64,000 bases of DNA from contig JAKURY010000005.1 of the NCBI GenBank assembly GCA_022452145.1, forward strand, positions 39,460-103,459, written 5' to 3'. Position numbers and translations under genes: made by a program. Below the pieces are notes generated by a model. The model ran no database searches and was not told where the DNA came from. It saw only the letters and a list, made by a program, of their open reading frames with translations. Of the stretch, positions 28,268-40,104 are shown one piece after another. The DNA comes from Acidimicrobiales bacterium (GTDB lineage: Bacteria > Actinomycetota > Acidimicrobiia > Acidimicrobiales > MedAcidi-G1). The first letter of the stretch is position 1; each line of letters starts with the position of its first letter.

Positions 28268-28297
28268 TTGCATCGAACGCCTGTTCGCAATTACGCT
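28268..28297 (+). promoter_or_regulatory. recA promoter with LexA operator
   Basis: A -35 TTGCAT (28268-28273) is followed directly by a perfect SOS box CGAACGCCTGTTCG (28274-28287; consensus CGAAC-N4-GTTCG) and a -10 TACGCT (28292-28297), with an 18-bp spacer. LexA bound here would block RNA polymerase. The transcript would carry a leader of about 110 nt before recA. Confidence 0.82.
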
Positions 28298-28416
28298 CTT
28301 GTCATTCGATCCGGATCCGTTGTCACAGGTCCTCCCTAGGGTCACCTCCGACAACCCCGGCAGACACCAAGTCAGACGACCAGGACCGCGAGGGTCCGGA
28401 GAACACGGAGCACACC

Positions 28417-37562: not shown

Positions 37563-38195
37563 TCAGATCCGCCGTAGGACGGTCACGACCAGGCCGAATA
37601 TCGTGACCTCGTCAGCCGGGTGGCGGAGTTCGGAATAGGCGGGGTTCGCCGGCGACAGCACCACGGTGTCGCCATCGCGTCCGAAGTACTTCACGGTGCC
37701 CTCGTCCCCGGGAATCCCGGCCACCACGAGGTCGCCGGGCTCGGCGGTCCGCTGGACCCTCACGACCACGTGGTCGCCGTCCAGGATGCCGGCGTCGACC
37801 ATGGACTCGCCACGGACCCGGAGCATGAACAGGTCGCCGTCGCCTGTGAACTCGGCGGGTAGGGGGAGTGACCCCTGGATGTTCTCGTGGGCTAGGACGT
37901 CGGTTCCGGCGGCCACGTCACCGACCAGGGGGACGTGTCGTACCGTGCTCCGTTCGACGGCGGCGCCGCTGATCGGGTCGAGGCAGACCTCGAGGGCCCG
38001 GGGCTTGGTCGGGTCCCGCCTCAGGTAGCCGCGGTCCTGGAGGGTGGCCAGGTGGGAGTGGACGGTTGACGGGGACGTGAGCCCGACTGCCGTACCGATC
38101 TCGCGGACGGACGGCGGGTAGCCGCGCTCCCGGGTTTCGGTGTCGATGAACTCGAGGATCTGCTGCTGTCGCTGGCTGAGCCCGGTCACGGTCAT
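37563..38195 (-). CDS. lexA: LexA repressor
   Basis: LexA represses SOS genes and self-cleaves with RecA filaments. The 210-residue protein has the N-terminal winged helix (LSQRQQQILEFIDTETRERG, SVREIGTAVGLTSPSTVHSH), the Ala-Gly cleavage site in LVGDVAAGTDV, and the catalytic Ser in VRGESMVDAGI with a Lys in GTVKYFG. I chose the ATG at 38195, which gives MTVTGLSQRQQQ and has AGAGAG upstream. A longer GTG start at 38252 would place coding sequence over the first LexA box. It is divergent from a LysM gene. Confidence 0.96.
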   Translation of the reverse strand: MTVTGLSQRQQQILEFIDTETRERGYPPSVREIGTAVGLTSPSTVHSHLATLQDRGYLRRDPTKPRALEVCLDPISGAAVERSTVRHVPLVGDVAAGTDVLAHENIQGSLPLPAEFTGDGDLFMLRVRGESMVDAGILDGDHVVVRVQRTAEPGDLVVAGIPGDEGTVKYFGRDGDTVVLSPANPAYSELRHPADEVTIFGLVVTVLRRI

Positions 38196-38238: not shown

Positions 38239-38266
38239 TTGACAGCGAACACCTGTTCGATACACT
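38239..38266 (+). promoter_or_regulatory. Promoter of the SOS LysM gene with LexA box 1 in its spacer
   Basis: -35 TTGACA (38239-38244) and -10 TACACT (38261-38266) are separated by 16 bp. That spacer holds the perfect SOS box CGAACACCTGTTCG (38246-38259) with one flanking base on each side. Transcription would start near 38273, toward 38386. The same box can serve lexA on the other strand. Confidence 0.85.
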
Positions 38267-38277
38267 GATGATGTGAT

Positions 38278-38321
38278 CGAACACCTGTACGCCGAATACA
38301 TGTTCCCCGAACAGGCGTTCC
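38278..38321. promoter_or_regulatory. LexA boxes 2-4 between lexA and the LysM gene
   Basis: CGAACACCTGTACG (38278-38291, one mismatch to CGAAC-N4-GTTCG), CGAATACATGTTCC (38293-38306, two mismatches) and CGAACAGGCGTTCC (38308-38321, one mismatch). The three start exactly 15 bp apart, and box 1 starts 32 bp before box 2. They lie downstream of the predicted start of the LysM transcript and in the lexA upstream region. Confidence 0.75.
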
Positions 38322-38385
38322 GTGTCAAGGACCCGGTCGGCCAGACGCATCGCCGGTGTCACACTCTGTCGTCAGGATGTAGTGC

Positions 38386-38868
38386 ATGAACGCGATGACC
38401 CTCGAACTTCCGCTCGACCTGGCCCTCGAGGCCGGCTCACGTCCGGTCCCACGTCCCGTCGGCCATGGCGTCGTCCAACGCCTGTTCACCGACGTTCTCT
38501 CGGCCGAGCCGTACGCCGTCGGATCCCGGCGGAATGGACCCGCGGTTCGTGCCGCCGTGGTGGGACCGGCCGTCTACCGCCGCCGTCGCCTCATCGCGGC
38601 GGTGGTCCTGGGTCTGCTCATCTCGAGCCTCTCGTTGCTGGGCGGTGAGCTGATCGGGCGGGTGACCGGCACGCCTGGCTCCACCGTGGTCGAGGCGGCC
38701 GGCGAGCCGATCATCTACGTGGTCCAGCCGGGCGACACGCTCTGGTCCATCGCCGAGCGGGTGAGCCCGCACGGGCGGGACATCCGGGACACGGTCGACC
38801 GCCTCTCGGTGGTCACCGGCGGGTCGTTGCTCCATCCCGGTCAGCGCATAGTCCTCCCGTACGGTTGA
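38386..38868 (+). CDS. SOS-controlled LysM-domain membrane protein (YneA/ChiZ-type division inhibitor candidate)
   Basis: A 160-residue protein. An N-terminal cytoplasmic part is followed by one membrane segment near residues 67-85 (RLIAAVVLGLLISSLSLLGG), then an extracytoplasmic region with one LysM domain (IYVVQPGDTLWSIAERVSPHG to HPGQRIVLPYG). Divergent from lexA and with LexA boxes in its promoter, it matches the layout of B. subtilis yneA and mycobacterial Rv2719c/ChiZ, which halt division during DNA damage. Whether it inhibits division or cuts peptidoglycan is inferred; no hydrolase domain is visible. Confidence 0.82.
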   Translation: MNAMTLELPLDLALEAGSRPVPRPVGHGVVQRLFTDVLSAEPYAVGSRRNGPAVRAAVVGPAVYRRRRLIAAVVLGLLISSLSLLGGELIGRVTGTPGSTVVEAAGEPIIYVVQPGDTLWSIAERVSPHGRDIRDTVDRLSVVTGGSLLHPGQRIVLPYG

Positions 38869-39847: not shown

Positions 39848-40104
39848 GCCCGCCGTCCCTAGGTTTCGACTTCGTGGCCGGTGGTGGTCGGCCCGGCAGA
39901 AACCGTCAAACCGATCCGTCGGGGAGACGCTGGGAGGACCGCACCGATTGCCGGTAAGGGTGTTCGCGTGACGGGCTCCTGGACCTGGGCCCTCCGCCCT
40001 CGGCCACGACAGCCGGGGCGCCCCGGGACTGTCACAGGTGGTCCGTACCATCGTGGCCGGTGGGCCGACCGGTCGGACTCGGGTGCAGGAGGACGGAGCA
40101 GGAA

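Follow-up and report, generated by a model that had tools for sequence, protein, structure and literature searches.

The window analysed here is a 64,000-nt stretch of the genome of an Acidimicrobiales bacterium (GCA_022452145.1, contig JAKURY010000005.1, positions 39,460-103,459 of the forward strand). Within it, lexA and a gene for a LysM protein are divergently oriented, and four LexA-box-like sites lie between them. The features of this region, numbered from the first letter of the window, are the following.

37563..38195, minus strand: lexA, 210 aa; Pfam PF01726 (LexA_DNA_bind, E=4e-25) and PF00717 (Peptidase_S24, E=4e-28)
38239..38266, plus strand: predicted LysM promoter P1; TTGACA (38239-38244), G, box 1, A, TACACT (38261-38266); 16-bp spacer
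38246-38259: LexA box 1, CGAACACCTGTTCG; 0 mismatches to CGAAC-N4-GTTCG; in the P1 spacer
38273..38389, plus strand: predicted leaderless short ORF, 38 codons; contains boxes 2-4
38278-38291: LexA box 2, CGAACACCTGTACG; 1 mismatch; between both predicted transcription starts
38293-38306: LexA box 3, CGAATACATGTTCC; 2 mismatches; overlaps the predicted lexA -10
38300..38328, minus strand: predicted lexA promoter; TTGACA (38328-38323), 17 bp, GAACAT (38305-38300, in box 3)
38308-38321: LexA box 4, CGAACAGGCGTTCC; 1 mismatch; in the predicted lexA promoter spacer
38357..38378, plus strand: predicted second LysM promoter P2; TGTCACAC-N8-CAGGAT, with the LysM ATG 7 nt downstream
38386..38868, plus strand: LysM protein gene, 160 aa; Pfam LysM PF01476 (E=4e-7)

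The lexA product has the hallmarks of a self-cleaving LexA protein, in that the DNA-binding domain and S24 peptidase are accompanied by the cleavage-site motif VAAG and by a Ser/Lys dyad (Ser in GESM, Lys in TVKYF). Its neighbor, which adjoins lexA in most Acidimicrobiia loci, encodes a hydrophobic stretch (approximately residues 69-90) followed by a C-terminal LysM domain (111-158), which is the arrangement characteristic of YneA, DivS, and ChiZ proteins. LexA-controlled genes for a LysM or small membrane protein also adjoin lexA in Bacillus subtilis (lexA-yneA; for YneA, see PMC13396833) and Corynebacterium glutamicum (lexA-divS). The gene described here resembles yneA and divS in its position next to lexA and in the hydrophobic segment of its product. 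Unlike YneA, however, this protein has a long N-terminal part and scores below the equivalog cut-off of the NCBIfam YneA model (21.6 bits against 60; E=1.6e-4), and for the latter reason we have not filed it as YneA. It is possible that the LysM protein is a YneA/ChiZ-like division inhibitor.

Direct reading of the sequence bears out the first-pass annotation with regard to the four sites, whose mismatches number 0, 1, 2, and 1 and of which boxes 2, 3, and 4 begin in steps of 15 and 15 bp. Likewise, box 1 fills the 16-bp spacer between TTGACA and TACACT with one base on either side. The interval from box 1 to box 2 is 32 bp rather than 15. A scan of the window for sequences within three mismatches of box 1 returned 37 matches where 6.8 were expected. 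When the whole window was simulated 100 times with a first-order Markov model, four sites with two or fewer mismatches never fell within 80 bp, and the largest cluster comprised three sites (in three simulations). Mononucleotide-shuffled lexA upstream regions yielded 0.19 such sites per 420 bp. Thus, the four sites are clustered far beyond chance. As a palindromic CGAAC-N4-GTTCG site overlapping a predicted promoter of an SOS gene, box 1 has the form of a Gram-positive/actinobacterial LexA operator. The annotation had added that intergenic regions of this kind usually hold fewer sites, and this generalization did not survive comparison. Four boxes have been reported for the Mycobacterium tuberculosis lexA region (PMC8151990), and the number found here is therefore not unusual. 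Furthermore, most of 98 Acidimicrobiia lexA upstream regions hold three to eight sites with two or fewer mismatches. Loci with a single box also exist, as in Streptomyces-like and some other lexA regions.

To follow the array through relatives, we used a LexA query to gather loci from 61 genomes of relatives, 80 GTDB contigs, and 158 genomes across the phylum; these loci share kinship, so counts across them are not independent. Drift of boxes 2-4 in related genomes had been named in advance as evidence against the array, and none was seen, with all four boxes being present in every family genome checked and the 15-bp spacing being kept. An exact pattern recovers all four boxes in 37 of the 48 genomes of the window's GTDB family. 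The 11 remaining genomes comprise one without a detectable lexA gene (G016), one with a one-base insertion between boxes 3 and 4 (G024, locus L036), and nine of genus g3, of which the five that were read carry every box, box 4 ending in another base. Across 30 family-type loci, neither the sequence nor the spacing of TTGNNA, box 1, and TANNNT (TTGNNA-N-box 1-N-TANNNT) changes. Most half-site bases of boxes 2-4 are likewise invariant, and flanking columns mostly carry 0-0.5 bits, which is near background. Box 1 is perfect in 30 of 30 relatives and boxes 3 and 4 never are. The triads in this column table were required to hold ATGTT[CT] in box 3; as a check against circularity, an unfiltered triad search gave the same 43 loci, all with ATGTT in box 3. 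In other Acidimicrobiia lineages, 13 loci have the 15/15 triad.

The regular spacing might suggest a phase-locked cooperative array. This idea is not supported, given that a 15-bp step corresponds to approximately 1.4 helical turns and that boxes 1 and 2 are anywhere from 29 to 33 bp apart among family members. A coding origin of the period was likewise discarded, the triad being retained in families without the short ORF. A precedent for packed LexA boxes of differing strength at one promoter is found in phage GIL01, where dinBox1 and dinBox1b are close, possibly overlapping, and bound without cooperativity, and where the stretch expected to be protected by a dimer of Bacillus LexA is 18-20 bp (PMC4551915). 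The boxes here differ in being 15 bp apart, abutting with 1 bp between them. Because neighbors at this distance are on different faces of the DNA and the expected footprint is 18-20 bp, boxes 2-4 may not all be filled simultaneously.

In an alternative reading, LexA binds in cells only at box 1, perhaps also at box 4, and the resemblance of boxes 2 and 3 to LexA sites is maintained by other constraints such as lexA promoter elements and the short ORF. The imperfection of boxes 2 and 3, the tight fit of three dimers at 15-bp spacing, and the equivalence of this period to five codons are all in keeping with such a proposal. However, each box retains the LexA half-site pattern in all family loci, and the 15/15 triad is kept in the Acidimicrobiia families without the short ORF. 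We consider this alternative improbable.

The placement of box 1 inside a promoter spacer was rejected as a special feature of this locus. In the same genome, a perfect box also stands one base before a -10-like hexamer at dnaE2 and at an ImuA-like gene, and this geometry is therefore a house style. At the dnaE2-like gene (locus L008, 1501-1530; G000 C15:48200), the perfect box is followed by one base, TATGGT, and an ATG 6 nt on, such that a leaderless SOS mRNA is predicted. Altogether, the same perfect box recurs in this genome at recA, dnaE2, two genes judged ImuA-like on visual inspection, a gene resembling alkB, and a gene for a DnaQ/GIY-YIG nuclease. The lexA region stands apart in how many boxes it has, since among six other LexA targets examined, only dnaE2 has a second site with two or fewer mismatches within 150 bp.

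The first-pass annotation overlooked three features, namely a predicted lexA promoter, a predicted LexA-independent promoter element of the LysM gene, and the short ORF. The first of these is a second promoter that appears to read in the opposite direction. The plus strand to the right of box 4 is TGTCAAGGACC, and its TGTCAA (TTGACA on the minus strand) is kept in 28-30 of 30 loci per position. The ATGTTC of box 3, which supplies the other hexamer, is kept in 29-30 of 30, and the N4 of box 3 always ends in AT while the N4 of the other boxes varies. The resulting lexA -10, GAACAT, matches TANNNT only weakly. At a second LexA target, the DnaQ/GIY-YIG nuclease gene (L006), the same GGTCCTTGAC is present, as is the layout of TTGAC with a box in a 17-bp spacer. 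That locus (L006/L132, approximately 1450-1550; G000 C13:41359-41422) is itself a divergent pair with one LexA box and with GGTCCTTGAC and TGTCACACCCC elements, the DnaQ/GIY-YIG (Cho-like) nuclease gene being on one side. From promoter geometry, transcription is predicted to start near 38293 for lexA and near 38273 for the LysM gene. The two promoters would therefore face each other with box 2 between them, and because their first approximately 20 transcribed nucleotides would overlap, RNA polymerase is probably excluded from occupying both simultaneously.

This geometry bears on the proposal, made in the first-pass annotation, that a graded array might provide either a tight and late switch for the division inhibitor or separate control of the two genes. 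At the level of sequence, the proposal is upheld with regard to control of both genes by LexA, the role of box 1 as operator of the LysM promoter, and a conserved grading of box quality. Since boxes 3 and 4 fall on the predicted lexA promoter, separate control of two opposed promoters matches the data better than one graded array giving a late switch, and a uniform late-switch interpretation is disfavored. One could still argue that the boxes together make up a single graded LysM operator that gives a tight and late switch, since box quality is graded, this grading is conserved, and M. tuberculosis assigns three of its four boxes to the LysM-side operon (PMC8151990). Yet a conserved minus-strand promoter directed toward lexA is predicted at the very position of boxes 3 and 4, box 1 by itself already occupies the LysM promoter, and the LexA-independent element is located farther downstream than any of the boxes. 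Hence, we believe that there is only a small chance that the array is a single LysM operator.

We favor instead a shared SOS operator-promoter region serving lexA and a YneA/ChiZ-like LysM gene, and judge that this explanation as a whole is probably correct. LexA bound at box 1 would block LysM promoter P1, and LexA bound at boxes 4 and 3 would block the lexA promoter that reads the opposite way. Box 2, lying between both predicted starts, could block both promoters. With the best box always at the LysM promoter and imperfect ones at the lexA promoter, the possible division inhibitor might be tightly repressed while lexA autorepression is leakier.

Between P1 and the LysM gene lies the short ORF, whose GTG start is 6 nt after the P1 -10 and whose TGA stop overlaps the LysM ATG (as ATGA). 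Most family loci have a GTG or ATG 6-7 nt after the P1 -10. In all 34 loci with such a start codon and a placeable LysM ATG, the distance from start to ATG is 2 modulo 3, despite spanning nine distinct lengths from 104 to 149. The ORF stop overlaps the ATG in 25 of these loci, overlaps a second ATG 9 nt on in three, and lies 17 nt upstream in six. When placed on the LexA tree, at least eight length changes are required, all multiples of three, which has a probability of approximately 1.5e-4 if lengths are free. Loci of other families are distributed 5/3/3 across the three frames. The start codon is absent in genus g4 and in locus L027. The g4 loci (L036, L040, L042, L045, L061, and L032) have kept all boxes and lost the short-ORF start, and their frames are no longer held.

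Beyond the constraint set by the boxes, the encoded peptide shows no clear conservation or selection, and therefore the short ORF, if it matters, probably acts via its translation rather than its product. Perhaps the ORF is an accidental stop-free stretch of high-GC DNA. Stops are few in GC-rich DNA, the peptide varies freely between its LexA-constrained part and its end, and one related genus does without the start codon. It is harder to explain by accident why the frame relation is kept in every one of the 34 loci over nine lengths and at least eight changes, and why the ORF-less loci of other families use all three frames. We regard an accidental ORF as a serious minority possibility. In the favored explanation, P1 transcripts probably begin at the GTG or ATG, and translation of the short ORF would end on the LysM start, thereby coupling LysM translation to it.

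The LysM gene also seems to have a promoter that is independent of LexA. The TGTCACAC element stands directly before the LysM ATG in 59 loci. Counting its first T as position 0, A17 is present in 57 of the 59 and T21 in all 59; between them, positions 18-20 are variable in loci from outside the family. In most loci, the ATG falls at 28-29. The spacing of this TGTCR element and its -10 is exactly that of the PafBC/RecA-NDp consensus of mycobacteria, tTGTCRgtg-8nt-TAnnnT (PMC5656591). The full consensus is not matched at the LysM gene, where CAC replaces gtg and the -10, CAGGAT, lacks TA. For this reason, P2 is predicted to work like a PafBC site and is not claimed as a canonical RecA-NDp site. 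Copies at recA, radA, nrdJ, and rmuC do have TA. In other classes, TGTCACACC with a full TANNNT is located near the same place, and mycobacteria-like loci have TGTCGGTG-N8-TANNNT. The genome encodes two Pup-ligase-family genes and a PafB/PafC pair (pafA-pafB-pafC), with pafB and pafC downstream of a Pup ligase gene. Among the relatives, each of the 41 good-quality genomes has a PafC domain.

Genome-wide scans, done as pattern searches, gave 39 matches to the P2 pattern with at most one mismatch in this genome, against 7 for a reversed control. The element precedes recA (beside a LexA box), radA, rmuC, and nrdJ. At recA (ATG at approximately 28417), one perfect LexA box (28274-28287) is followed by TGTCACAGG...TAGGGT (28321-28342), and both LexA and a PafBC-type input apparently control the gene, like its mycobacterial counterpart. 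Immediately ahead of a gene resembling those for ribonucleotide reductase (ORF from 40060) stands TGTCACAGGTGGTCCGTACCAT at 40030-40051, which suggests PafBC-type control of nucleotide supply. In locus L131 (1530-1844; G000 C12:51351), a 105-aa protein with no Pfam match is encoded directly behind an exact TGTCACACCCC-type element and is a possible new member of the PafBC-type regulon.

The P2 -10 overlaps a possible Shine-Dalgarno sequence, and TGTCACAC...GGAT might accordingly be only a ribosome-binding region, or the operator of some other factor, rather than a PafBC-type promoter. A GGA lies 9-12 nt before the ATG, where it could be a Shine-Dalgarno core, and the -10 at the LysM gene is missing the T of TA. 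Nevertheless, TGTCACAC is too far upstream for a ribosome-binding site, A17 and T21 are nearly or fully invariant while the bases between them vary outside the family, other classes carry a full TANNNT at the same spacing, and the element recurs before recA, radA, rmuC, and nrdJ. An identity other than a PafBC-type promoter is thus unlikely in our view, and P2 would provide the LysM gene with a second, LexA-independent DNA-damage input. P2 resembles the mycobacterial RecA-NDp (P1) promoters in its TGTCA, its spacing to the -10, and its presence at recA (PMC5656591). Unlike those promoters, the consensus here continues with CAC(CC) rather than gtg, the LysM -10 is xANNNT rather than TANNNT, and the gene starts 6-7 nt after the -10, such that the transcript is probably leaderless.

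In composition, the region belongs to the lexA-Rv2719c type, with a divergent lexA and LysM gene, several SOS boxes, and a PafBC-type motif on the LysM side. One of the four known SOS boxes of M. tuberculosis serves lexA and three serve the Rv2719c side, which also has a PafBC motif pointing away from lexA (PMC8151990, citing Dullaghan et al. 2002 for the lexA-Rv2719c (ChiZ) region; the gene names printed there as Rv2019c, Rv2018c, and Rv2017c are read here as Rv2719c-Rv2717c). The Acidimicrobiales locus likewise has lexA beside a LysM gene, four boxes, and a PafBC-type motif pointing away from lexA, and the same set of parts is present in the mycobacteria-like loci (L233-L236). The allocation of boxes may differ, as the predicted promoters here put box 1 at the LysM gene and boxes 3-4 at lexA. 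Moreover, in the mycobacteria-like loci a TGTCGGTG-type PafBC motif separates the box of lexA from the remaining three, whereas here the TGTCACAC-type element lies beyond all boxes, adjoining the LysM ATG, and boxes 2-4 are in 15-bp register. The locus can therefore be described as a variant, itself conserved, of an SOS locus already known from actinobacteria, and is mostly of a known kind. New to it are the predicted face-to-face promoters, each with a box in its spacer, the three boxes at 15-bp steps, a PafBC-type element that reads TGTCACA, and a leader ORF whose frame is conserved.

It is tempting to speculate further that the locus is a conserved DNA-damage switch whose LexA operators lie inside a leader ORF that is itself leaderless, that P1 transcripts give rise to the LysM protein by termination-reinitiation at ATGA, that P2 transcripts start at the LysM ATG, and that the promoters of lexA and the LysM gene vie for the same segment of DNA. 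We put forward this fuller scheme tentatively, as somewhat less probable than not. If it is true, the LysM protein would be made both from a LexA-gated, translation-coupled mRNA and from a LexA-independent leaderless mRNA. The locus also offers a clear, testable case of putative face-to-face SOS promoters and of operators within a predicted leader ORF. Because a rearranged counterpart of the four-box and PafBC arrangement is present in Acidimicrobiia, and likely in other Actinomycetota, dual control of this kind looks old and widespread in the phylum. The proposed PafBC motif of Acidimicrobiia, TGTCACA, would make the regulon predictable in these organisms.
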